Source of the DNA: a bacterium
GTDB lineage: Bacteria > Arandabacterota > Arandabacteria > Arandabacterales > Arandabacteraceae
Direction: 5' to 3'
Assembly: GCA_029933125.1 (NCBI GenBank)
Contig: JAOZOU010000001.1
Coordinates: forward strand, 442,073-506,072
DNA length: 64,000 bases
Position 1 is the stretch's first letter; each line of letters begins with the position of its first letter. The notes under the pieces are model-generated. The model saw only the letters and a list, made by a program, of their open reading frames with translations, was not told the origin of the DNA and did not search any database. Positions 10,982 through 44,935 of the stretch are shown here, piece after piece. The translations under genes were made by a program, and so were the position numbers.

Positions 10982-11449
10982 CTATGCCCTCTCACCAGGA
11001 CCATGTATGACCCTCATGAGAACAAGAAGTATGAATACCATAAACAGTGAACTTGCAACCTTGAGTGCTATGGCAATATTGCAGAGCGGTATTATGCCTG
11101 AACTGAAAAGGGTAAAGGGCGTACCAGGATTTGCCTTGGCAATGTAGTTGATAAAGAACCTGCCGCCAAGGGTGCCCGCGATTCCGAGAACTGCTATCAC
11201 TAGAAACATAAGAGCACCAACGCTGTCGAGCTCCGATGCCACACCTATGCGGAAGCGCCTGAGCGATTCCTCCTTACCGTAGGCAAGCGTAAGAAGGACA
11301 AAAACCATTGCCAGGATCACGCCACCAGCGAAGCCGCCACCAGGTGTGAGGTGCCCATAAAGGACAATGTAGATTCCGAAAATCATTATAAGACCCTTAA
11401 TCCAACCTGTTATCGTCTTGACAATTGGAGTCATTCCCTTCTCAGCCAT
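10982..11449 (-). CDS. mrpB: Mrp antiporter subunit B homologue
   Basis: 155 residues from ATG 11449 (MAEKGMTPIVKT); the open frame extends 12 nt further but that would deepen the overlap with the upstream gene. Four membrane helices. The MrpB/MbhF motif YGHLTPGGGFAGGVILA is intact, and VASELDSVGALMFLVIAVLG follows. The start overlaps the stop of the MbhD/E-like gene by one base, which suggests translational coupling. Confidence 0.9.
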   Translation of the reverse strand: MAEKGMTPIVKTITGWIKGLIMIFGIYIVLYGHLTPGGGFAGGVILAMVFVLLTLAYGKEESLRRFRIGVASELDSVGALMFLVIAVLGIAGTLGGRFFINYIAKANPGTPFTLFSSGIIPLCNIAIALKVASSLFMVFILLVLMRVIHGPGERA

Positions 11450-12018
11450 TACTCCTCCCATTCTCCAACTTCAGGCTCAGTGGGTTTCTTACGCGCTTTC
11501 TTACGAATGACTGCAATTGCACCCATAATCGCTGTGAAGAGAACAGTCGCCTCACCAAGTGTATCGTATGCTCTGTAGTCGAGCAAAACGGCTGTAACGA
11601 TATTTGCTGCACCGGTCTCCTTTAAGCCATTGGCAATGTAGAGTCTTGTTGGTGCATCAGCGATTCGCTGCATCACTGGATGACCAAACGGAGGAAAATC
11701 GTCGAAAACCCTGATTCCGGCCAGGAAGATAACAGCCAGCATAGCCATTGTAACCATCATGCCGAAGAAGTCACGGTTCCCAATGAAGGTTCGCAAGCCT
11801 ACCCTGAGGGTAGCCCTTATCAAGATTATCAAGATGAGAACCTCAACCACTATTGGCACTATTGCAACATCAGGTGCCCGCATGTAAAAGAAGGCTATGA
11901 TAACACCAAAACCAACCGCCGTTACCGATATAACAGCGGCCAGTAGGTCACGTGTCTCGATGGCAACTATTGCAGCTATCACCATAAAGAGCAGCAATAG
12001 ACCAATGAATTCAAGCAT
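11449..12018 (-). CDS. Mrp subunit A C-terminal homologue (MbhD+MbhE fused)
   Basis: 189 residues, about five membrane helices. The first half (TRDLLAAVISVTAVGF, FYMRAPDVAIVPIVVEVLIL) is the MbhD/DUF4040 segment, and the second half (NIVTAVLLDYRAYDTLGEAT) is the MbhE segment. In Mrp antiporters both are fused to the C-terminus of MrpA; in Pyrococcus Mbh they are separate genes; here they are fused to one another but split from the NuoL-like subunit. This intermediate arrangement is useful for classifying the complex. Confidence 0.87.
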   Translation of the reverse strand: MLEFIGLLLLFMVIAAIVAIETRDLLAAVISVTAVGFGVIIAFFYMRAPDVAIVPIVVEVLILIILIRATLRVGLRTFIGNRDFFGMMVTMAMLAVIFLAGIRVFDDFPPFGHPVMQRIADAPTRLYIANGLKETGAANIVTAVLLDYRAYDTLGEATVLFTAIMGAIAVIRKKARKKPTEPEVGEWEE

Positions 12019-12021
12019 ACA

Positions 12022-13839
12022 TCACCTCAGCAATATGATGATTAGAACCATTATCCCTGCAAGCATCCAGCTCAGGTAATGTGGCAATATGCCAGTGTGA
12101 ATTGCACGGAATCCTCTAACAAAATAGAAGGAGAATTTTTGTCCTATGTCATATGTGTCAAAGGCATGCTTCTGGGCTGCCCTGTATATCTGACGGAAGA
12201 ATCCCATATCACTCACTGTGTTATAGAAATCCGTTCCTGTTACTCGCACTTCGGCTGGGATGATCTCGCCGCCAACATACATAGAATCTGTTCGTGTGGC
12301 TTTGAGCCTACCTGCCAGATAGATTATCAATCCAATCACAATCCCGACTACAATGAACAGGGTCGCAAGTCCTGGACTCCACCAACCTAGCCAGGCACTT
12401 ACCTCAGGCATACCGAGAACTCTCTGAACAGCTGGAAGTATGAATCCCCTGAGTGGTATAGAATAGGCAAAGATGCCAAAGCCGAGGCACAGGATGGCGA
12501 GCACAAGCATGGGTATCGCCATTGTTGGACCAACTTCCTTCGGGCTCTCGCCCTTCTTGGATCTCACCCCGAGAAAGACTGTGTGAAGAACCTTCATAAA
12601 GCTAGCAAGGGTTAGAGCGGATCCGAACATGGCAGCAACGAGCCATATGACCCAGGCGTGCCCACCACGCTTGCCTAGTTCAATAACACCCTGATAGACC
12701 ATCCATTTGGAAACAAATCCATTAAGAGGTGGAACTCCAGAAATTGCAAGGGCAGCTATTACGCAGCTGAAGAACGTAAGTGGCATATAGCGAGCTAGAC
12801 CGCCAAGCTCATCAAGATTGGTAGTCCCCTCACGTTTCTCAACAGAACCACCACACAGGAAGAGACAGCCCTTGTATATGGCGTGGTTTACCATGTGGAA
12901 GAGGCCACCTGCAACTCCGATCGGGTTCAAGGTGCCGACTCCCAGTACCATGTAGCCAACCTGGGAGACAGCATGATAGCTTAGCAGACGCTTCAGATCA
13001 TGCTGGACAAGCGCCATCATTACAGCAGCTATTATGGTAAATGCACCGACAATCAGCAGCAGGAGCATCATACCGCCGCTCAGATTGAAAAGATAAAGTG
13101 AAACCCGTGCAAGGAGGTAGATTCCCAGAAGCTTATCAACTGAAGCGGGCAGGAAAGCAACAACTGAAGTGGGAGCATGTTCTGCCGTATCGGGTATCCA
13201 GCTATGAAATGGCATAGCACCAGCTTTAGCAAATGCGGCACAGGCGAAGAGGATAAAGGCAAAAACTGAAAGCCCGGTTATTGTTGGAATCGAGGGCTGG
13301 CTAAGACTGGTTGAGCCCGTAAGCACCCAAACAAGGGTTACTGCAAGGACAAGCAGTGCATCGGTCCCGCCAACAATAACCATTGTCTTTTTGGCAGCAC
13401 CAGAAGCTTGAGGTCCCCCTGTCTCAATCAGCATGAAAAGTGTGAGCCCTAAGAAACCCCAGAAGGAGAGCAGAACAACGAGATCATTGGCAAGGACTGC
13501 ACCAAAGGCACCACCAAGAGTAAATAGCATATAGGCGTAGTATTGCTTGAGGTAAAGTTTGCCTCGCATGTAGCCCAGAGAGTAAAGAACCATTATAAGC
13601 CCGAAGAAGCCAACCCACAGAATGACAAAGGACGATAAGGTATCAACCTTAAAAATCACTCTCCCGAAGTATTCGCTCTCGAGCCAACCCTGACGGAAGA
13701 GCAAGATGGAAATGTAGAAGGTAACTGCTGAAACAATAAGAGCTATGCCTTCTTTGAGCCCCTTGAAGGCATCAGGAATTATTCTGACAATTGCGCCTGC
13801 TACAAGTGGAACGACAATCAAGTATCCAACTAGATCCAT
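12022..13839 (-). CDS. NuoL/HycC-like antiporter subunit of the hydrogenase
   Basis: 605 residues, about 16 membrane helices, of the NuoL/MrpA/HycC family. Visible ion-path blocks: ANDLVVLLSFWGFLGLTLF, AKAGAMPFHSWIPDTAEHAP (helix 7 Lys) and MALVQHDLKRLLSYHAVSQ. The C-terminal extension (FYFVRGFRAIHTGILPHYLSW) resembles the lateral-helix/last-helix region of NuoL. It bridges the hydrogenase core genes upstream and the Mrp block downstream. The start at 13839 overlaps the large-subunit stop by 10 bp. Confidence 0.9.
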   Translation of the reverse strand: MDLVGYLIVVPLVAGAIVRIIPDAFKGLKEGIALIVSAVTFYISILLFRQGWLESEYFGRVIFKVDTLSSFVILWVGFFGLIMVLYSLGYMRGKLYLKQYYAYMLFTLGGAFGAVLANDLVVLLSFWGFLGLTLFMLIETGGPQASGAAKKTMVIVGGTDALLVLAVTLVWVLTGSTSLSQPSIPTITGLSVFAFILFACAAFAKAGAMPFHSWIPDTAEHAPTSVVAFLPASVDKLLGIYLLARVSLYLFNLSGGMMLLLLIVGAFTIIAAVMMALVQHDLKRLLSYHAVSQVGYMVLGVGTLNPIGVAGGLFHMVNHAIYKGCLFLCGGSVEKREGTTNLDELGGLARYMPLTFFSCVIAALAISGVPPLNGFVSKWMVYQGVIELGKRGGHAWVIWLVAAMFGSALTLASFMKVLHTVFLGVRSKKGESPKEVGPTMAIPMLVLAILCLGFGIFAYSIPLRGFILPAVQRVLGMPEVSAWLGWWSPGLATLFIVVGIVIGLIIYLAGRLKATRTDSMYVGGEIIPAEVRVTGTDFYNTVSDMGFFRQIYRAAQKHAFDTYDIGQKFSFYFVRGFRAIHTGILPHYLSWMLAGIMVLIIILLR

Positions 13840-15050
13840 ACCCTATCCATCCTCGACTTGTATTTCTCCATGAGTTTGCGAGTTTTCTCCTGCGAAAGCC
13901 TTAGAAGCTCTTTCCAACCCATGAGTTGCTTACCGCTGTCTGCATCAACCACAATCGTTCTTTCAGTACAGCAATAGCACGGATCGATGGCTGCCAAAGT
14001 GATGGTTGCATCTGATACTGTATAGCCAACAACTGCACGATTGTTTGTTGGCACATTCATAAAGCTGGGTGCCCTGATCTTGTATCGGATGGGGCGGTTA
14101 GAACCATCAGAACGCACATAGTGGAAAACCTCACCACGTGGAGCCTCATGATGACCGATTCCCTCACCAGGTGGAATTTCTTTGTAATTGGCATCAATAC
14201 CGTCTCTTACTTCTCTCAGTTTCTCAAGGCACTGTTTGCATATCTTGACCGACTCCAGCATCTCAAGCACACGAACGACAACTTTGTCAAAGACATCACC
14301 ATTCTCGGTAGTCACAACATCCCATTCAACCAAATCATATGCCGCATAGGGATGATCTCTTCTCACATCCCATGGCACACCCGATGCTCTCGAGGTTGGT
14401 CCAAGTGCTCCAAGCTCAACACAATCCTCATATGTCAGTACACCAACATTCTTCAGCCTTGCCTGCAGCACTGGATCAGCCATGGCAATCTTGGCAAACA
14501 TAAGAAGCGGTCTCTCAAGCCCATCGAGTATGCGCATAGCAGTTGGTAGGTCTTCATCCTCAAAGTCTCGCCTCACACCACCTGGCTTGAACATGGCATA
14601 ATGGTTGCGGTTACCAGTAAGAAGTTCGAAACAATCGAGCACTGGCTCACGATATTTCCACGCCCACATCCACACGGTGTTATAACCGAGGAAGTGCCCT
14701 GCGAGTCCAAGCCAGAGCAGATGCGAATGAATGCGCTCAAGCTCTCCGACGAAAGTTCGGATATACTTGGCTCTCTCGGGAATATCGAATCCCCCTACGT
14801 CTTCAATCGCATTGACACATGCAAAAGGATGAGATGTGGAGCAGATTCCACAAACCCTCTCAACAAGAAAAGGTACCTGATCATATGTCAAGCCTTCGGC
14901 GAGCTTCTCTATCCCCCTGTGGTTATAGCCTATTTCTATGTCGAGCTTTACGACCTTCTCACCTTCGACATGGAGCTTGAAAAACTCAGGCTCCTCCTGC
15001 AGCGGGTGATACGGGCCTATGGGAATGATCTGGGTCCTATTCGGTGTCAT
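13830..15050 (-). CDS. Group 4 [NiFe]-hydrogenase large (catalytic) subunit, HycE-like
   Basis: 406 residues from ATG 15050, which has GGAGGGGTGGGGAGC just upstream and overlaps the NuoC-like gene by 14 bp. Both nickel-binding motifs are intact: RVCGICSTSHPFAC near residue 65 and DPCYCCTER near the C-terminus, so this is a catalytic hydrogenase rather than a complex I NuoD. After DPCYCCTER there is a tail of about 40 residues resembling the tail that HycI removes from E. coli HycE. The operon supplies that protease. Sequence and operon content suggest an Mrp-linked group 4 hydrogenase; the exact subgroup needs phylogeny. Confidence 0.93.
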   Translation of the reverse strand: MTPNRTQIIPIGPYHPLQEEPEFFKLHVEGEKVVKLDIEIGYNHRGIEKLAEGLTYDQVPFLVERVCGICSTSHPFACVNAIEDVGGFDIPERAKYIRTFVGELERIHSHLLWLGLAGHFLGYNTVWMWAWKYREPVLDCFELLTGNRNHYAMFKPGGVRRDFEDEDLPTAMRILDGLERPLLMFAKIAMADPVLQARLKNVGVLTYEDCVELGALGPTSRASGVPWDVRRDHPYAAYDLVEWDVVTTENGDVFDKVVVRVLEMLESVKICKQCLEKLREVRDGIDANYKEIPPGEGIGHHEAPRGEVFHYVRSDGSNRPIRYKIRAPSFMNVPTNNRAVVGYTVSDATITLAAIDPCYCCTERTIVVDADSGKQLMGWKELLRLSQEKTRKLMEKYKSRMDRVWI

Positions 15051-15501
15051 GCTCCCCACCCCTCCATTCTTTCCAATCTCGCCGTAACGGGTAATTGCCC
15101 TCAAGCCAGTCATCGCTTAAGAGCAGGTGTCTCATATCAGGATGATTCCTGAACTCTATACCCAGGAGCTCCCACATCTCTCGCTCTATCCACTCAGCTG
15201 CAGGCACCCGCTTCGCAATCGATTCTATCGAAGGCTTCTCAGGATCGAGAATCACTCTGAGGTTGATGATTCTGTTAGCACGATCCATGGCGAAGTGATA
15301 AAGAATTTCAAATCCGTATTCCATGTGCATGCCTGAACAGATCTGAAACCGACAGGCAAGATCCTTATAGCAGTATTCGGCTATATCGGGCAATCGAGCT
15401 GGATCAACTGTGATGAAGGTGCGCCTGCTACTTTTCTCATATACATCCTTTATGGCATCCCCAAACTTCGCCTTTATCCCTTCAACAACCTCATCCGCCA
15501 T
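15037..15501 (-). CDS. NuoC-like 30-kDa subunit (HycE N-terminal domain homologue)
   Basis: 154 residues. Contains the complex I 30-kDa family core: FEILYHFAMDRANRIINLRV, VPAAEWIEREMWELLGIEFRNHPDMRHLLLSDDWLEG and the terminal YPLRRDWKE. The typical ERE-x-x-D/E-x-x-G-I signature is present (EREMWELLGI). In E. coli HycE this domain is fused to the large subunit; here it is a separate gene whose 3' end overlaps the large-subunit start. It helps assemble the small and large subunits. Confidence 0.9.
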   Translation of the reverse strand: MADEVVEGIKAKFGDAIKDVYEKSSRRTFITVDPARLPDIAEYCYKDLACRFQICSGMHMEYGFEILYHFAMDRANRIINLRVILDPEKPSIESIAKRVPAAEWIEREMWELLGIEFRNHPDMRHLLLSDDWLEGNYPLRRDWKEWRGGEHDTE

Positions 15502-15518
15502 CTCTCAGCCAATCCTCC

Positions 15519-15950
15519 TCATTTCTTGAGTGCTGCAAGCTGTGCCTGTATCAAGGCGACAACGCCCTGAATCATAGCCTCTGGTTTCGGAGGACATCCG
15601 GCAATGTAAGCATGCACCTCTGAAACATTATCAAGGCATTCCATCTGATTGTATGAGTTTGCGAACATCTCCATAGAGCAAGAGCAATTGCCAATGGCTA
15701 TCACAAAGCAGGGTTTGGCCGCCTGAGCGATAACACGCTTAAGCCTCTGCCTCGCTTTTCTATTCATCGAACCTGTCACCAGAATTGCATCTGCATGCCG
15801 CACACTGCCGACGAGTTGTATACCGAACCGCTCTACATCATATCTTGGTGTAAGCAGATCAAGGATTTCGATGTCACAATTGTTACAGGGGCTTGCTGCA
15901 AGATGAAATACCCAGATTGACTTTGTAAGTGCTTTGATCTTAAGACTCAT
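15519..15950 (-). CDS. [NiFe]-hydrogenase small subunit (NuoB/HycG-like)
   Basis: 143 residues. Ligands for the proximal [4Fe-4S] cluster are seen as SPCNNCDIEILDLLTPRYDV, IAIGNCSCSMEMF and AGCPPKPEAM. It receives electrons from the NuoI-like ferredoxin and passes them to the NiFe site. It is short and single-clustered, as in group 4 enzymes and complex I, without the medial and distal clusters of respiratory uptake hydrogenases. Confidence 0.92.
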   Translation of the reverse strand: MSLKIKALTKSIWVFHLAASPCNNCDIEILDLLTPRYDVERFGIQLVGSVRHADAILVTGSMNRKARQRLKRVIAQAAKPCFVIAIGNCSCSMEMFANSYNQMECLDNVSEVHAYIAGCPPKPEAMIQGVVALIQAQLAALKK

Positions 15951-15959
15951 ACCTCACCC

Positions 15960-16895
15960 TCATAGACCCAGAAATGCCAGGATAACAGCAACTATAGCAA
16001 TTGGCGTTATCTTAGCCCAGAAGAATTTCATAATCTGATCTATCCTCAACCTTGGATTTGTGTTTCTGACCAGCGTTATGAAAAGCAATATGCCTATGTA
16101 AATGAGTGCCGCCCAAACTATATTTAGCCATGACTGGCGCCAGTTTACAGCTCCAATGAAGAGCATCATGAGGAAAAATGGCACAACAAACATCATCATC
16201 CACTGGGTAAGCTTGAAAAGACCAAGTGCTGCACCGGAGTATTCAATGTAAGCACCGCCCATTATCTCGGTCTCAGCTTCTGGCACATCGAATGGCACCT
16301 TGGCAAGTTTAGCCTGCATACAGATAAGACTGATTACGAAGGCGATCACTCCCGAGATCGAAGCAATGACGGCACCCTCGGTCGCCTGATGCTGAAGAAT
16401 AACTCCTAACTTGATTGTCTCACCAGCCTTAATTACCGGCACGAGTATGGCAAGCACAAAAGGAAGCTCGTAAGAGAGGATGAGCTTCATTTCTCGTGAT
16501 CCACCAAGAGACGCCAATGGGTTAGCAGAGGCAAATGCACCCAGAATAACAGCCTGAGAAGGAATGGTGAGAAGGTAGATGACAACGATAAGGTCTCCGA
16601 GAAAAGTCTGCTGGGGGAATATCACTGTTCTTATCAATAAGGCTGAAACAACAGACACTGCAGCAAGTCCGAAAAGCGGAGCCGAAAGGAAAAGAAATCT
16701 TGAAGCCCCCTCTGGAACTATGACTTCTTTAGCAAGGAGCTTGACGAGATCATAGACTGGCTGGAAGAATGGAGGGCCAACACGCCACTGAACCCTTGCC
16801 GTTATCTTCCTGTCAAACCAGTGGGCGAACATCCCGATTATTGCTGCAGCAAGAAAACCAATTACAAGATATCCTATGCCCTGCACTATGCTCAT
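15960..16895 (-). CDS. Hydrogenase membrane subunit (NuoH/HycD-like)
   Basis: 311 residues, eight or so membrane helices. NuoH-family blocks: FDRKITARVQWRVGPPFFQP, DLVKLLAKEVIVPEGASR and the acidic PFDVPEAETEIMGGAYIEYSG loop that lines the redox-to-membrane coupling site. It anchors the peripheral hydrogenase arm to the antiporter arm. It lies 9 bp from each neighbour. Confidence 0.92.
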   Translation of the reverse strand: MSIVQGIGYLVIGFLAAAIIGMFAHWFDRKITARVQWRVGPPFFQPVYDLVKLLAKEVIVPEGASRFLFLSAPLFGLAAVSVVSALLIRTVIFPQQTFLGDLIVVIYLLTIPSQAVILGAFASANPLASLGGSREMKLILSYELPFVLAILVPVIKAGETIKLGVILQHQATEGAVIASISGVIAFVISLICMQAKLAKVPFDVPEAETEIMGGAYIEYSGAALGLFKLTQWMMMFVVPFFLMMLFIGAVNWRQSWLNIVWAALIYIGILLFITLVRNTNPRLRIDQIMKFFWAKITPIAIVAVILAFLGL

Positions 16896-16904
16896 ATCAA
16901 TCCG

Positions 16905-17450
16905 CTACCTTTTCCAGACACTTGATTTGACAACAAGATGGTCAGCAACTTTATAAATCCCCCTCTCCTCGTCCTCCTCAATCTCTTTGTACTCAATCGC
17001 CCCTTCAGGACTTGTCTTGACACAAAGTGGCTCCTCACCCGGCTTAAGACGCTCTAGACAAAAGTCACACCTTGAACCCAGGTAAGGCACAAGCTCGGGA
17101 TAGATGGTACCAAAGGGACAGGCTACGACACATGAGCGGCAACTTATGCACCTCAGATTATAGCGCCGCAAGATCCCTTCCTCGTCTTTCTCAAGTGCCT
17201 CTTTGGGACATGCATTGACGCAATTGGAATTCTCACATCTGCGACACACGATAGCATAGATTGCAACTTCACGCAGCGATGCAATCCCATCATTGCTCCG
17301 ACTGTCCTTAGGAAGATCTGCATCACCCTCACGCCTGAACCTGCGATCGAAGGGAGTGTAATCGTGATAAGGATAGCTGCATTGAATTTCGAGCTCGCCC
17401 CTATGCTCGAGTTCATCTAGCTTATCCAAATCGATAAATACCTTCTTCAA
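16905..17450 (-). CDS. Polyferredoxin electron-transfer subunit (HydN/CooF-like)
   Basis: 181 residues with several [4Fe-4S] motifs: CRRCENSNCVNACP, CISCRSCVVACP, and CDFC with a later Cys (PLCVKTSP), as in the HydN/CooF/DmsB family. It is well placed to wire the diaphorase-like subunits encoded just upstream to the hydrogenase core. The number of clusters (three or four) cannot be settled by eye. Confidence 0.87.
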   Translation of the reverse strand: MKKVFIDLDKLDELEHRGELEIQCSYPYHDYTPFDRRFRREGDADLPKDSRSNDGIASLREVAIYAIVCRRCENSNCVNACPKEALEKDEEGILRRYNLRCISCRSCVVACPFGTIYPELVPYLGSRCDFCLERLKPGEEPLCVKTSPEGAIEYKEIEEDEERGIYKVADHLVVKSSVWKR

Positions 17451-17469
17451 TTCAAATTCCCTCTCACCA

Positions 17470-18303
17470 TCAATCCCATATTCCGGGTTTATCCTTGATC
17501 AGGTCATATGTCAGAACTGGACCATCCTGGCAAACCATATATTCACCGAGCATGCAGTGTCCACACTTGCCTACACCACAACTCATATTCTTTTCCATCG
17601 AAAGGTATATTGAGCTCTCAGGATAGCCAAGCTCAAGCAGCTTGAAGGTTGCAAACTTCATCATTATAGGTGGCCCACAAACAACAGCAACACTACTCGC
17701 CAGATCCAATCCAAGATCTCTCACCACAGTTGTAACAACGCCAACATTGCCCTTCCAGGTTTCGTCACCCTCATCGACGGTGAGCCTTATCTCCACCTTC
17801 TTGGGATCTATCTTGGGCCACTCTTCCATTATCTGCTTCTTATAGACTATATCCTTTGGAGTACGAGCACCATAGCAGTAAAGGATCTTCTTGAAATCAT
17901 CGAGCCTTTCGGTAAGAGCAAGGAAAAGAGCTCTTAGCGGCGCGCCGCCTACTCCACCGCCAACTATACAAATCTCCTTGCCTTTCCAGGCATCGAGAGG
18001 ATAGCCTTTGCCAAGGGGACCCCGCACACCCACAGTGTCACCTTTGCGCATCCTGTGAATTGCTTCGGTGACCCTGCCGACCTTCATTATAGTGAAGTCG
18101 ATAGTTTCCTTCACATTTGGAGACGAAGAAGGCGTAAAGGGAGCCTCGCCCACACCTGGCACTGTAACTTCCATGAACTCACCAGCTTGAAAGCCGATGG
18201 GCTGCCTCGGACGAACAACAAATGTCTTTATCGTCGGGGTCTCGTCTATGACCTCTAATATATCAGCAGTTACGGGCTTATAAATGTTCTTCACGACTTG
18301 CAT
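17470..18303 (-). CDS. FAD/NAD(P)-binding reductase subunit (HydG/AsrB-like)
   Basis: 277 residues of the ferredoxin-NADP reductase superfamily in the HydG/AsrB/dihydroorotate-dehydrogenase-K branch: FAD-binding FMEVTVPGVGEAPFTPSSSP, nucleotide-binding ICIVGGGVGGAPLRALF, CGPPIMMKF, and a C-terminal [2Fe-2S] motif CGVGKCGHCMLGEYMVC. Such subunits exchange electrons with NAD(P)H in sulfhydrogenases and anaerobic sulfite reductases. No sulfite reductase catalytic gene is present; instead the partner is the hydrogenase. The start overlaps the next gene upstream by 13 bp. NADH versus NADPH preference is not evident. Confidence 0.88.
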   Translation of the reverse strand: MQVVKNIYKPVTADILEVIDETPTIKTFVVRPRQPIGFQAGEFMEVTVPGVGEAPFTPSSSPNVKETIDFTIMKVGRVTEAIHRMRKGDTVGVRGPLGKGYPLDAWKGKEICIVGGGVGGAPLRALFLALTERLDDFKKILYCYGARTPKDIVYKKQIMEEWPKIDPKKVEIRLTVDEGDETWKGNVGVVTTVVRDLGLDLASSVAVVCGPPIMMKFATFKLLELGYPESSIYLSMEKNMSCGVGKCGHCMLGEYMVCQDGPVLTYDLIKDKPGIWD

Positions 18304-34094: not shown

Positions 34095-36452
34095 TTATTC
34101 ATTCACAAGACCAGAATCAAGATCGTATATCTTCCAGGCAAGGCTGTTAAGCTCATCAAGGAGATTACGTGAAATGGGGCATGTGGATTCCTCTATCCGT
34201 TTAACAAGCTCTTCCACCTGCCTTGCAAGTTTTGATCTTGAGGACTCTTGTGGATCAGGAATTGGTATCATCCTAAGTTTGGAAATCTTTATCTGCGGGA
34301 ATGCCCTCTGGTTGATTTCGGGTGAGATTGCCGCAAGGAGGAGTCTGCAGACATCTGAGTTCAGTATCCCCAGGAGATATTCTATCGAATAACCATCTGG
34401 CACCTTTAGTCCCAGCAAGCTATTTCGGAAGTAGCACCTAAATCTGTGCCTGGCAGCAATAGGTCGAGAGGCTGTCTGACGCAAAAGGATATCAACTTCT
34501 TTGTAGGCCTCCGGTGAAGCTATTCGAAAGTATTCGCCTTTGCTCCGCTTATATCTCACGTTTAACCATTTGAGGGGTCGCTGGCAGCGGAAAAGCTTAA
34601 CACGCTTGCCTTCAAGGAGCTCAACCCAACCTGGTCTTGGCGCTGAATGCACAAGTTTGTGAGCCACGTTACCAGTGTGAACCCCAATGTCTTTGTAGCC
34701 ATCTATGGGTTTATGCTTTGTAGAGGCAATCTCGTAGAGCCGCCGCAGACGGGATGCGTACCAGGCTTCCCCATTTAGGGGAGAAAATCTCGAACTACTC
34801 TTGTGAAAAACACAGAGAGCGCTTTCTGCCTTCTCCCCCTTGCGCAAGCAAAACGTCATACTCGGCGTTATAGCTTTTGGGAAGACACCCTCGCCCCAGT
34901 AACGCACTTCAACCAAATTGCCAGCCCTAAGCATTCGCTGCCTTATGTCAGCATAGCCATCGAGATAGCCAACCTGATCAGGCACAACCATTGCAATGAT
35001 TCCACCATCCTTGGCAAGCTCAACGCCCCTCAGCATGAAGATGGAATGGCTTGCTGGCCAGCCCTTGATTCCATATCTTGCTCTTAGCTTTTCATAATCT
35101 GTGCGGTGAGACTGCTGGTGCCTGCCTGAATATGAAAGGTAGGGAGGATTGCCAATAACGACATCGAAACCTTCGTGCAATCTTGCTTGGCTGAAGGTGT
35201 ATTCACTGCCACAAGAGGAAGATTGTGCTTCAAGATCACACAACACATTATGAGCCACAAGATTCCGTTTGAGGGCATCCACAAGTTCCCGACTCCATCC
35301 AACATGGAAAACTACAAGTAGCCTCGCGATCTCAACAAAATCTGTTTCAACATCAATTCCATAAATACACTGGGTACCTATTGCTTTTCTAAAAGCCTCA
35401 CTTTCACTTGAATCGTCCGAAGCACTAAGAGCCCAAGCCGTGTTCCTAAAGGTTGCTCCATAAAGCCAGTCAATTGCAGCAAGAAGAAAATGCCCAGCAC
35501 CCATCGCAGGATCCAGAATCCTCATCTTGAGTATTCTTCGCGATGACAACTTCGATCTCCTCGAATTGGCAGAGAACAGATGCACGGTGAGAGCTCTATC
35601 AACGAGATAGTCTACAACGGCTGGGGGAGTGAAAAAGATGCCACGCCTCCGAACACTTTCTGACGAACAAGGCTCAAGAATGAAATTATGGGGTTCGCGA
35701 ATGAAAATCTTCCCAGAGTCATCGTGGAAAAGATCGACTTGCTTGCCGACTGGTTGTGCCTTGGGTGGCTGAGGGCTTGCGAGTGAATCTGAATGAGTGA
35801 TGTGGAAACGTTTGCGTCTCAGACTCACGCTCGTTACGACTCCCTGTGAAACCATCTTTGGCTCAAGCGTGATCAAAGTTTCGAAGACATAGCCGAGATC
35901 CGATGCGGTCAGATTTTCCATTTTGAGCTTCTTTCGCTCGATGCTACACTTAAGGGCTCTAAGCAAACTCATAAGAAAGGGTGGCGTAAGGCCTTCCAGG
36001 AACTTCTCATCTGGGAAAGCATCTGTAGCTTCGAGCAATCTCCTTATACGAAGATGAGTATCATGGGCGTGCTCGCCCATACCTTCCCTTGCAAGCCAGA
36101 CGAGGCAGAAGCTCACAAGAAGACTCGAATGATAAATCTTCCGAAGGCGCTCTTTGACCGAGGTGCCTTGAAACAATTTTGAATCTTGCCTCTCGCTATG
36201 CTCCGAGATCTTGCCTCCGACGAGCTCGCTAAGAGCAATGATCATTGAGGCAAGGCTTAGCCCATCTCGCAAGAGTTCCCCATCTGAGCCGACGAAGATC
36301 GATTCGTGAGTTGGTGAGAGACTCAAGCCCTCTCTTGTGCTATGAAGATCGATCTCACTCCTCATCTTTCTATCAGCCACATGGGCAATTTTGGGGGCAC
36401 TCTCTGGGTCAGCTGCCATCTCTTCATTGGTTCCCGCATTCTGCGAACCCAA
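34095..36452 (-). CDS. Type IIG-like N6-adenine DNA methyltransferase (Eco57I-like)
   Basis: About 785 residues; the start is uncertain (TTG 36452, or ATG 36419 or 36365). Motif I ILDPAMGAGHFLLAAIDW near residue 311 and motif IV FDVVIGNPPYLSY near 432 identify an N6-adenine methylase of the Eco57I family. A C-terminal target-recognition region follows, with FPQIKISKLRMIPIPDP, a TaqI-type C-terminal signature. I see no clear PD-(D/E)xK nuclease in the N-terminal 300 residues, so it could be a methylase only. No partner restriction gene is adjacent. Confidence 0.82.
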   Translation of the reverse strand: MGSQNAGTNEEMAADPESAPKIAHVADRKMRSEIDLHSTREGLSLSPTHESIFVGSDGELLRDGLSLASMIIALSELVGGKISEHSERQDSKLFQGTSVKERLRKIYHSSLLVSFCLVWLAREGMGEHAHDTHLRIRRLLEATDAFPDEKFLEGLTPPFLMSLLRALKCSIERKKLKMENLTASDLGYVFETLITLEPKMVSQGVVTSVSLRRKRFHITHSDSLASPQPPKAQPVGKQVDLFHDDSGKIFIREPHNFILEPCSSESVRRRGIFFTPPAVVDYLVDRALTVHLFSANSRRSKLSSRRILKMRILDPAMGAGHFLLAAIDWLYGATFRNTAWALSASDDSSESEAFRKAIGTQCIYGIDVETDFVEIARLLVVFHVGWSRELVDALKRNLVAHNVLCDLEAQSSSCGSEYTFSQARLHEGFDVVIGNPPYLSYSGRHQQSHRTDYEKLRARYGIKGWPASHSIFMLRGVELAKDGGIIAMVVPDQVGYLDGYADIRQRMLRAGNLVEVRYWGEGVFPKAITPSMTFCLRKGEKAESALCVFHKSSSRFSPLNGEAWYASRLRRLYEIASTKHKPIDGYKDIGVHTGNVAHKLVHSAPRPGWVELLEGKRVKLFRCQRPLKWLNVRYKRSKGEYFRIASPEAYKEVDILLRQTASRPIAARHRFRCYFRNSLLGLKVPDGYSIEYLLGILNSDVCRLLLAAISPEINQRAFPQIKISKLRMIPIPDPQESSRSKLARQVEELVKRIEESTCPISRNLLDELNSLAWKIYDLDSGLVNE

Positions 36453-36477: not shown

Positions 36478-37830
36478 TCACACCACCTTGAGAAGTTGGC
36501 GAGCGGCGATATGAATGGGATCCCACGTTGGCGAAAAAGGTGGTGAATAGCCAAGATCAAGGTTGACAAGATCTTCAACTGCCAGCCCTGCCTGCAGAGC
36601 TGTGGCAAGGATATCAATGCGCTTGGCAGAGCCCAGGCCTCCAACTATCTGTCCTCCCAAGAGCCTTCCTGTCTTTTTCTCAGCGAGGAGCTTCACCGTG
36701 ATAGGTTGCGTTCCAGGAAAGTATCTTGCCAAAGTGTGACCTGTTATCTTGGCTGATACAAAGTCGATACCGAGTCCCTCTAGCTCATGTTCACTAAGGC
36801 CTGTACGAGCAAACTCAGTTTCGACGAAACGCGAGATCGCAGTTCCAACAACTCCTGGGAAGTTTACGTCATTACCTGCAACATTTAGTCCTGCAACTCT
36901 GCCCTGCTTGTTGGCAACAGTCCCGAGTGCAATCCAGGTTGGCTTGCCGCTTACGAGATGATGAGATTGAGCACAATCACCAGCTGCCCAAACGCCATCT
37001 ACCTGTGTCTTGCAGCGGCTATCGACAACAATGGCATCCTTGATGCCGAGCGGGATTCCCGCAGATTTCGCCAAAGCGGTATTCGGGCGTATTCCAATAC
37101 CGAGTATGGCAATGTCCGCTGGAATCTCTCGCTTATCGGTTACAACTGCATTTAACTGCTTACCAGTTGTATCAAAACCTGTAAGTTTCTCACCGAGATA
37201 GAGACTTACACCTTCTTTGGCAATTGCGTCGGCAAGCAGCTTGGCCATATCCGGATCAAGCGTCCCCATTACTTGGGGAAGCATATCAATCAATACAATT
37301 TCGAGATCCCATCGCAGTAAGGCCTCCGCCATCTCGATTCCGATATAGCTTCCTCCGATGATGGCTGCTCTCTTTGCCTTTCTTTCCTCGAGCACCTTTC
37401 TCAAGGCAATCGCATCTTCGAGTGTCGTCACTTCATAGATACCTTCAGCACCTATGCCTGGAACATTTGGTCGAATCGGAATTGCTCCAGTTGCAATCAC
37501 AAGATAGTCCCAGGCTTGGGTAATCCTCTTCCCACCGTTTGGACGTTCAATCACAATCTGCCGCCCCGTGAGATCAATCTCGACAACCTGGCTACCTGTA
37601 CGAACGTCAATCCCCTGTTTCTCTTTGAATTCCTCAGGGGTTCTGACGATGAGCTTTTCAATCGTGTCGACAAACCTGCCGACGAAATACGGGATACCTC
37701 AGGCAGCATAGGAGACGTATCTTCCGGCTTCAAAAACGATAACTTCGAGGTCAGCTCGCTGGCGTTTCGCTTGAGAAGCTGCTGACATGCCAGCTGCACT
37801 TCCACCTATTACGACAAGTCTTGATTTCAT
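36478..37830 (-). CDS. CoA-disulfide reductase/NADH oxidase family selenoprotein candidate (in-frame UGA at the redox Cys)
   Basis: Read as one gene of 450 residues with Sec at residue 44. ATG 37830 is preceded by GGAAGGTGGGAG. The N-terminal FAD motif LVVIGGSAAGMSAASQAKRQ leads to RYVSYAA-U-GIPYFVGRF, where UGA (37701-37699) stands exactly where the catalytic Cys43 of CoA-disulfide reductases and Nox enzymes lies (SYxxCGxPY). Downstream the frame is intact: LVIATGAIPIRPNVPG, AAIIGGSYIGIEMAEALL, VWAAGDCAQSHHL, and the C-terminal YSPPFSPTWDPIHIAA. No other stops or frameshifts occur. A SECIS-like hairpin follows at 37685-37662. The likely role is NAD(P)H-dependent reduction of CoA disulfide, polysulfide or O2. 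Otherwise it would be read as a nonsense mutation. Confidence 0.82.
37662..37685 (-). promoter_or_regulatory. Putative bacterial SECIS element
   Basis: The mRNA after the UGA folds as UCGU-CGGC, hexaloop AGGUUU, GUCG, a two-base AC bulge, then ACGA. Eight base pairs, one of them G-U. The loop begins 21 nt after the UGA, inside the 16-37 nt range known for bacterial SECIS, and has G at its second position. The E. coli fdhF loop is AGGUCU, one base different. Confidence 0.7.
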
Positions 37831-38006
37831 AGGCTCCCACCTTCCTCTGCACTGCCTCTCGTTCCTCTACATTTTTGTATTTTCCTCTATATTGCGCTCA
37901 AGGCTAACATTTCTTGTAGCAATCGTCAACGCTTGCACTTGACAGAAATCGTTGACAAAGGTTGATTCGGGGTGCTAAGTAAAGCTTCCCAAAAGGAGGA
38001 AGGCTT

Positions 38007-42335: not shown

Positions 42336-43202
42336 CTATACAAGTGTTTCCCCACGATAAAAAGGTGAGGCTGGATCATCTTCCGCCGGAGAAGTCTCTT
42401 CAGCGGGTATAGCCAACAGCTCCCCATAGAATTCAGGTCGCCTGTCCTTGAGAACATGATTACGCTGGGTTATCATCTTGTTGTTGGCAAGGTCCGGTTC
42501 AATTTCAATGACTCGCAAGCCCTCTTCGGTATCATCAGCGCGCACCAGCACCTCACCACGCGGACCAACAATCTGGCTCATTCCGATGAACCTAAGTTCC
42601 AGCCCAGCCCTTGCCTCCGTTCCTACTCGATTGACTGTGACCGCAAAGACTCCATTCTCAATGCACCTTGTAATCATTGCTCTTGGACAATAGGGGAGAA
42701 CAAGATTTGATGGATGGCAAATAATCTGTGCCCCCTTGAGGGCAAGGATACGTGTGACCTCGGGGAATATCCAGTCGAAGCAAATCATGAGCCCGACTTT
42801 AGCACCCCTCACTGAAACCACATCAAGAGATAGGTTGCCAGGTGTGAAAAGTTCCTTTTCACGATCAAAGAGATGAAGCTTGCGATACTTGGCTCTTATG
42901 TCTCCATCTTCGATAAGATAGCAGGAGTTATAGCATTCCCCATCAGCCCTTTCCGCAATCCCAGCCACGATTGCCATATTGAGCTTCAGTGAGAGTTGCT
43001 TAAGGAAGGTGAAAGTTTCACCTGCCTCGTCCTCTGCTAGCTCAAGGAGCTCGTCTTTAGATTCGAAGATGTATCCTGTTGAAAAGAGCTCCGGCAAGAC
43101 TACAAGATCTGCCTTGGCTCCTTCGAGAAATTGCTCAACACGCTCAAGGTTAGCTTTCTTATCTCCGAAAGCAGGCGCAAACTGCAGAAAACCAATTCTC
43201 AT
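42336..43202 (-). CDS. Carbon-nitrogen hydrolase (nitrilase superfamily amidase)
   Basis: 288 residues. The catalytic triad of the superfamily is complete: Glu in LVVLPELFSTGYIF, Lys in AKYRKLHLFDREK and Cys in VGLMICFDWIFPEV. The last 25 residues are an acidic/proline tail not needed for the fold. Members hydrolyse amides such as omega-amidase or carbamoylputrescine substrates; the substrate here cannot be told. It is convergent with the peptidase gene. Confidence 0.9.
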   Translation of the reverse strand: MRIGFLQFAPAFGDKKANLERVEQFLEGAKADLVVLPELFSTGYIFESKDELLELAEDEAGETFTFLKQLSLKLNMAIVAGIAERADGECYNSCYLIEDGDIRAKYRKLHLFDREKELFTPGNLSLDVVSVRGAKVGLMICFDWIFPEVTRILALKGAQIICHPSNLVLPYCPRAMITRCIENGVFAVTVNRVGTEARAGLELRFIGMSQIVGPRGEVLVRADDTEEGLRVIEIEPDLANNKMITQRNHVLKDRRPEFYGELLAIPAEETSPAEDDPASPFYRGETLV

Positions 43203-43594: not shown

Positions 43595-44350
43595 ATGGAA
43601 GGCAAAGAGTTCTATTTCGATCTTAAAGATAAGCACACCGAACCCACTTTCTTCTTTATGCTCAACTGTGTACTCATGACTCGCGCTCAGAATGAAGTTG
43701 AAGATGGAGGCAGATTCGAAGAGGAAATCAATGTGTATTTGGCAAATCTTCTATCGGCTTTCGCAAACCCATCCTACATTGAGCATCTTAAACCTTATCT
43801 TTCTGATCATGACATTGAAGTATTCAAGCGGCTTGAGAAATCCAATGATGCCAGGCTCAAATATACGATCTACAAGGCAAATGCTGATTTCTTGCTCTTC
43901 TCAATTGGCATCTTCGATGCTGAGGGTGAGAAAGCCCTTCCCTTGGGGCCTGAGTTCAGACACGGTCATCAGGGACAGATGGGAAAGGGGCAGACCTACT
44001 ACCACTTTGCCTTCTCTTACAGTCAGCGCCTTCCGGGACTGGGTGATACCATACCGCATGTCCTTGAGCAGCTCAGCAAGGGCTTCGAAAAGTATGTCAC
44101 AATTCTTTCTTACCTGAGAGGGGAATACTTCGACATTGTGCGACGCCTCTCTGACGGCGAGATCTATCATCTCATGCGTTCAGTTCAAGCCTCTGGCAGG
44201 AAGATGCAACTCGAGCAAAAGCAAAATGAATTCCTCGATGCCTACCTTGATTGGAAAAACCTAGGTACGGAAGAGGCGAGGCAACGGGTGCTGGCTCTTG
44301 CTGAGGAGCTAAGAATCCTTGATCCCACCTTCTCGTATAAGCTTGAATAA
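43595..44350 (+). CDS. Conserved-looking hypothetical protein
   Basis: 251 residues, cytoplasmic, mainly helical. GGAAGGG lies just before ATG 43595. Notable stretches: YFDLKDKHTEPTFFFMLNCV, PEFRHGHQGQMGKGQTYYHF, and a charged C-terminal helix (RKMQLEQKQNEFLDAYLDW). No signal peptide, no membrane helix and no known catalytic motif. I do not recognise the family. It is preceded by a structured RNA candidate, which might control it. Confidence 0.7.
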   Translation: MEGKEFYFDLKDKHTEPTFFFMLNCVLMTRAQNEVEDGGRFEEEINVYLANLLSAFANPSYIEHLKPYLSDHDIEVFKRLEKSNDARLKYTIYKANADFLLFSIGIFDAEGEKALPLGPEFRHGHQGQMGKGQTYYHFAFSYSQRLPGLGDTIPHVLEQLSKGFEKYVTILSYLRGEYFDIVRRLSDGEIYHLMRSVQASGRKMQLEQKQNEFLDAYLDWKNLGTEEARQRVLALAEELRILDPTFSYKLE

Positions 44351-44935
44351 GGGATCTTGATTTGGGGGCTGGGAACTCAGGGCTTCCGGGATTTCGGCAT
44401 TTCGGGATCTCGGGTTTTTGCCGTCTTCGTATCTGGGGGATTGAGGATATCGGCTTGTGGCTTTCGGCTTAAGGCTCCTATCGAAGATTTCTGTTACGGC
44501 CTTGCGACCCAGAAACTTTCACTCAGCGATTCAGAGTTTCGGGTTTTCGCCCCGACCATCCACGGCTGAACGATTTCTGCTCGGTATTTCGCTTGAGGAC
44601 GTGCGTTTGGGAATTCCCCGTCAGGGTCTTCGCCAGCACGCGAGCAAATAGCAAAATCCCCGCCGGGTGCCGCGTGTTCAGGTTATTCCTGACCCGGATT
44701 CATCCAGGTGGGTGCCCGCACTCACGCTTCATGTCTTCTGACCCGAAGCCAGACCCGCAATCCACGTGAGGATTTAAGGCTCCCTTATGTTGCGCTGTTG
44801 GCTCAGAATACACTGGCAACATCGCGTGCAACGGCAGGGATTTTGTTTCTATTCAATTCTCACATCCGCGACCCTTCCGCGACCCTTTATGAGTATACCA
44901 ATCCCCAACCCCAAAGTCAACCACGCGATCTTCGT
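44351..44935. other. Gene-free, word-repetitive stretch left of the IS256 copy
   Basis: No supported gene. The first 250 bases are built from recurring words (TTCGGG, CGGGATTT, TCGGGTTTT, CGGCTT), as in decayed minisatellite or degenerating intergenic DNA. It ends where the IS256 terminal repeat begins. Confidence 0.5.

Follow-up and report, generated by a model that had tools for sequence, protein, structure and literature searches.

A probable selenocysteine form of a CoA-disulfide reductase-type flavoprotein in Candidatus Eisenbacteria, with a conserved SECIS hairpin

The gene and its in-frame UGA

Does an in-frame TGA within a flavoprotein gene stand for selenocysteine (Sec), or is it a lesion, and which reaction would the full-length enzyme catalyse? 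The gene lies on a 64-kb stretch of DNA, referred to here as the window, from a genome whose nearest named relatives are Candidatus Eisenbacteria. Gene integrity, the Sec column, the Sec machinery, the SECIS constraint and the protein fold were assessed computationally.

On the minus strand, the frame running from 37830 to 36478 opens with ATG and comprises 450 codons; TGA occurs in frame once, at codon 44, and again as the terminal stop. The codon-44 TGA (37699-37701, minus) is the sole interruption of a 450-residue flavoprotein of the CoA-disulfide reductase (CoADR)/NADH oxidase type, an FAD- and NAD(P)H-dependent oxidoreductase. An earlier note on this DNA had described a gene at 36478-37830 that is intact but for one UGA, and its coordinates, strand and frame are all correct. 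The residues around codon 44 read SYAA-U-GIPYFVG, with the UGxP motif present as UGIP. A listing of open reading frames under the standard code yields just the downstream 358-aa fragment of this gene. Upstream of the ATG, a purine-rich segment at 37834-37847 (minus) is probably the ribosome-binding site, judging from the sequence. The N-terminal FAD-binding Rossmann motif VVIGGSAAGMSAA is encoded at 37777-37815 (minus; Pfam Pyr_redox_2 at residues 4-310) and the NAD(P)H-binding Rossmann motif AAIIGGSYIGIEMAEA at 37321-37368 (minus; Pfam Pyr_redox at residues 154-231).

In a six-frame scan of the 64-kb window, inspected by eye, this was the sole in-frame TGA with both sides forming one recognisable protein. 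The in-frame TGAs at positions 15507, 12024 and 2844 of the window were rejected as ordinary stops or gene junctions.

Conservation of the UGA and exchange with cysteine

Three genes from two other genome assemblies of the same bacterial family, at 59-62% protein identity, have one TGA each, at the same codon, and no other stop. A same-genus copy ends at a contig end ahead of codon 44. These genes bear on the reading of the UGA as a nonsense mutation or as a base-call error of a Cys codon. A single-base change from TGT or TGC to TGA would be enough for that, and one assembly alone would be compatible with it. Against it stand the shared position of the UGA at about 60% protein identity, the lack of any further lesion in these genes, the complete Sec machinery and the frozen synonymous sites in the hairpin, both described below. 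A pseudogene or sequencing error was rejected on the conservation of the UGA across diverged genes, and we regard it as extremely improbable.

The earlier note had proposed to look for alternation of Cys and Sec across homologues, and such alternation is seen at the codon-44 column. Among 80 homologous loci from named genomes (81 homologues together with the window gene), 72 have Cys, encoded by TGC or TGT where read, and 8 have UGA. The UGA loci comprise three from Eisenbacteria, four of Thermomicrobia type and one from Desulfofustis glycolicus; the window gene brings the Sec sequences to nine. UGA at other, unconserved positions in related genomes had been named as a sign against Sec; the relatives carry UGA solely at the same conserved column within the gene. 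This column is C or U in 32/32 aligned sequences.

Three changes of the Sec state are required on a maximum-likelihood tree, and well-supported branches force at least two of them; the tree does not tell Sec gain from Sec loss, and each change may be in either direction. The Sec form is a minority, since a broad scan of 386 genomes gave UGA solely in Eisenbacteria genes among the strong matches.

Besides these genes, an Eisenbacteria relative has a distant (29%) NADH-oxidase-like gene (757-2076, minus, of locus L050, on contig C72 of genome G002) in which UGA occupies the corresponding catalytic column (FIVR-U-ALPHV). A TAG precedes this UGA by eight codons, and the gene may be a further Sec form or may be damaged.

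The SECIS hairpin

A hairpin begins 15 nt downstream of the UGA, with the DNA sequence GTCGGC-AGGTTT-GTCGAC at 37666-37683 (minus). In its core, GUCGGCA-GGUU-UGUCGAC, seven base pairs form the stem and the GGUU loop (37673-37676) lies 22 nt past the UGA. The count in the earlier note, an AGGUUU loop 21 nt from the UGA, was right; at minimum free energy an additional A-U pair forms, and the two descriptions refer to the same structure. Like the SECIS of E. coli fdhF, the element is a hairpin just past the UGA with G-G-U in the apical loop, and the two differ in the loop, which is AGGUCU in fdhF and AGGUUU (or GGUU) in the window.

Published constraints on bacterial SECIS elements are an upper stem of 4-16 bp, a loop of 3-9 nt with G in the first two positions, a distance of 16-37 nt from the UGA and a minimum free energy of at most -7.5 kcal/mol (PMC13188914). 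The hairpin lies within all four, with 7 bp, GGUU, 22 nt and -9.5 kcal/mol, the energy being that of the surrounding 24-nt stretch. This energy is modest in relative terms (z -2.4 for 24 nt and z -1.6 for 43 nt), and folding energy measured against synonymous shuffles separates Sec from Cys homologues weakly (p = 0.05). Some hairpin that passes loosened SECIS rules also occurs in 18 of the 72 Cys homologues.

Because folding energy discriminates weakly, codon conservation was used as the main test of the SECIS. In the four Eisenbacteria Sec genes, conserved degenerate codons are identical at 5/5 positions within the hairpin vs 22/184 elsewhere (p = 4e-5). Across all nine Sec genes from three lineages, the codons V-GTC, V-GTC and D-GAC are fixed, 3/3 vs 7/120 outside (p = 4e-4). 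Both p values are approximate, as codons were treated as independent and kinship among the sequences was left uncorrected. At the same stem codons the Cys homologues use GTG, GTT, GTA and GAT freely. Codon conservation across relatives puts the hairpin beyond chance. An 18-nt element, GUCGCCGGUCUGGUCGAC, is common to the Thermomicrobia and Desulfofustis genes, whose proteins are only 57% identical; its loop is GGUCU and it has a bulged U.

Selenocysteine machinery

The earlier note had named selA, selB, selC and selD as the genes to look for, and all of them are present in the same genome: selA (580 bits), selB (398 bits), a tRNA-Sec with anticodon UCA and two copies of selD. In one selD the catalytic position is itself encoded by an in-frame UGA ('...CAGUASK'). 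This Sec-type SelD gene (C171:209908-210825) is located immediately upstream of the tRNA-Sec gene (C171:210944-211036), and the second, Cys-type SelD is found elsewhere (C76:20148-21071).

selA was found in seven of the eight genomes of the phylum that were searched, and in four of the five genomes outside Eisenbacteria that encode the Sec form. It was not found in the 2.1-Mb assembly of one Sec-encoding relative, an HR32 MAG (locus L095).

We consider it highly probable that the UGA at codon 44 inserts Sec in this enzyme family. SelB with Sec-tRNA(UCA) would recode the UGA to selenocysteine, directed by the SECIS hairpin.

Protein family and activity

The read-through protein matches Pyr_redox_2 with 216 bits (gathering threshold 26.1) and Pyr_redox_dim with 58.6 bits (threshold 25.3) in Pfam. 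Its best-scoring NCBIfam families are CoA-disulfide reductases, with scores, taken with Cys put at the Sec position, that stay below the curated equivalog cut-offs of TIGR03385 (457 vs 578.8 bits) and NF007123 (426 vs 458 bits). Because of these scores, CoA disulfide is not established as the substrate. Substrate preference within the single-Cys CoADR group is hard to predict from sequence alone (PMC6026696). The domain search detected no C-terminal rhodanese domain of the kind found in CoADR-RHD and Nsr, and the protein stops at residue 450.

Aligned with the solved CoADRs 6ruz, 4fx9 and 5l1n, codon 44 falls on their catalytic Cys, confirming the earlier statement that the UGA sits exactly on the conserved redox Cys, at residue 44. 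The Cys contexts aligned with Sec44 are 'vsygaCGlpy' in 6ruz and 'vshapCGipy' in the Pyrococcus protein 4fx9. Further features are of the CoADR type, namely a single active-site residue (here Sec) followed by G-x-P, the segment YSPPFSPTWDP (motif YxPPFxPxWDP) and two C-terminal tyrosines, Y370 and Y428. Tyr370 (36721-36723, minus) is invariant in 32 sequences and aligns with a Tyr of the Pyrococcus CoADR; it is a candidate equivalent of the partner-subunit Tyr361' of CoADR. Tyr428 in LDLGYSPPFSPTWDP (36547-36549, minus) is nearly invariant and a candidate equivalent of CoADR Tyr419'.

The AlphaFold model of the protein (mean pLDDT 93, pTM 0.90) matches CoADR and persulfide reductases over the whole length, with Z of about 50 and rmsd of 1.3-2.0. 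The NADH-dependent CoA disulfide reductase 6ruz has the same fold, length and catalytic column and is 44% identical where the structures align (Z 50.7). The Archaeoglobus fulgidus NAD-dependent persulfide reductase 6pfz and the Pyrococcus horikoshii CoA persulfide/polysulfide reductase 4fx9 also share the fold (Z 50.5-50.8) and the catalytic column, and 6pfz has about 100 additional C-terminal amino acids that the window protein lacks. All three have Cys where the window protein has Sec.

NADH oxidases (Nox) and NADH peroxidase (Npx) share this fold as well (Z 46-48), together with the single catalytic Cys, and 'NADH oxidase' is a name given to this selenoprotein family in the literature. The enzyme might then insert Sec and work mainly as a peroxidase or oxidase through Sec-selenenic acid chemistry, instead of as a CoA-dependent disulfide or persulfide reductase. 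However, the sequence is closer to most CoADR and persulfide reductases (up to 44% identity) than to Nox/Npx (27-29%), with the S. aureus CoADR equally distant at 27%, and both C-terminal tyrosines, like the YxPPFxPxWDP motif, match the CoADR type. Moreover, Npx and Nox carry a catalytic His10 in the region that matches the N-terminal segment VIGGSAAGM, and there is no His in this segment. We judge a mainly peroxidase or oxidase function to be fairly unlikely; the reduction of CoA disulfide or CoA persulfide is probably the main activity.

In the single-Cys enzymes, tightly bound CoA is part of a Cys-S-S-CoA centre; NAD(P)H reduces this centre via FAD, and the centre reduces di-, per- or polysulfides (PMC6026696). 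For the window enzyme, we infer selenium insertion, the bound CoA and the substrate. The product would be an FAD enzyme of the single-cysteine group of pyridine-nucleotide-disulfide oxidoreductases, expected to be a homodimer, in which electrons would pass from NAD(P)H through FAD to the redox centre. Where Cys enzymes have Cys-S-S-CoA, the Sec44 enzyme would have Sec-Se-S-CoA, and this centre would reduce CoA disulfide, CoA persulfide or polysulfide, with O2 or peroxide as less likely substrates.

Gene neighbourhood

In two related Eisenbacteria genomes, genes for a thioredoxin (WCGPC) and an SLAC1-type anion channel directly adjoin the Sec gene (L048, 2820-4249; L049, 4414-5762). Such an arrangement might point to an enzyme that reduces thioredoxin or works with thioredoxin, and not on a CoA substrate. 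The two genomes are close relatives with 87% identical proteins, however, and the window has a peptidase in that place, the neighbours in other lineages are unrelated, and the Sec44 protein has no CxxC reductase motif. A thioredoxin-linked role is very unlikely. It is quite unlikely, too, that the Sec enzymes form a subgroup with a function of their own, such as a dedicated CoA-persulfide/polysulfide reductase coupled to thioredoxin and the anion channel in Eisenbacteria.

Genes for a nitrilase and an uncharacterised protein also lie beside the thioredoxin and SLAC1 genes, and have counterparts in the window at 42336-43202 and 43595-44350. The window keeps this pair, with the peptidase replacing thioredoxin and SLAC1. 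No recurring neighbour was seen at the three non-Eisenbacteria Sec loci examined. The neighbourhood was rejected as a guide to function; the thioredoxin/SLAC1 arrangement was seen in two close Eisenbacteria genomes.

Directly downstream of the selenoprotein gene is an Eco57I/TaqI-type restriction-modification methylase (34095-36452, minus). Elsewhere in the window are a 6S RNA (RF00013, 81 bits) at 44653-44843 (minus) and, at 10982-18303 (minus), a cluster that appears to resemble a membrane-bound [NiFe]-hydrogenase/Mrp-type complex with an FNR-like NAD(P)H subunit.

Known selenoproteins and significance

In 2006 Zhang et al. listed 'NADH oxidase' among the selenoprotein families, with a single member from Geobacter metallireducens (PMC1794560), and the GOS survey likewise had one member (PMC2398784). 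A 2022 review tabulates a Sec FAD-dependent oxidoreductase (CoA-disulfide reductase) (PMC9312934) and a 2026 review a Sec CoA-disulfide reductase with the motif UGxP (PMC13188914). The reading of the window gene as a selenocysteine version of a CoA-disulfide reductase, put forward in the earlier note, is supported, and its novelty was overstated, as UGxP Sec forms of the family have been published since 2006. Compared by family and motif, the Sec FAD-dependent oxidoreductase WP_011365774.1 and the window protein both belong to COG0446/TIGR03385, with the UGxP motif and one Sec per protein, and differ in the host phylum, which for the window is Candidatus Eisenbacteria. The main texts of the 2026 review (PMC13188914) and of the deep-Sep paper do not name this phylum.

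The Sec form of the family is already known, and what is added here is the Candidatus Eisenbacteria phylum, a well-constrained SECIS and the exchange of Sec and Cys across lineages. Standard ORF calling would truncate the Sec44 gene. The hairpin illustrates well, in a natural gene, how an RNA constraint can override codon choice. The selenoprotein family, counted once among the genomes surveyed in 2006 and once in the GOS survey, is extended to a deep, uncultured phylum. Sec and Cys have replaced one another in more than one lineage at the catalytic residue of CoA-dependent disulfide/persulfide reductases.
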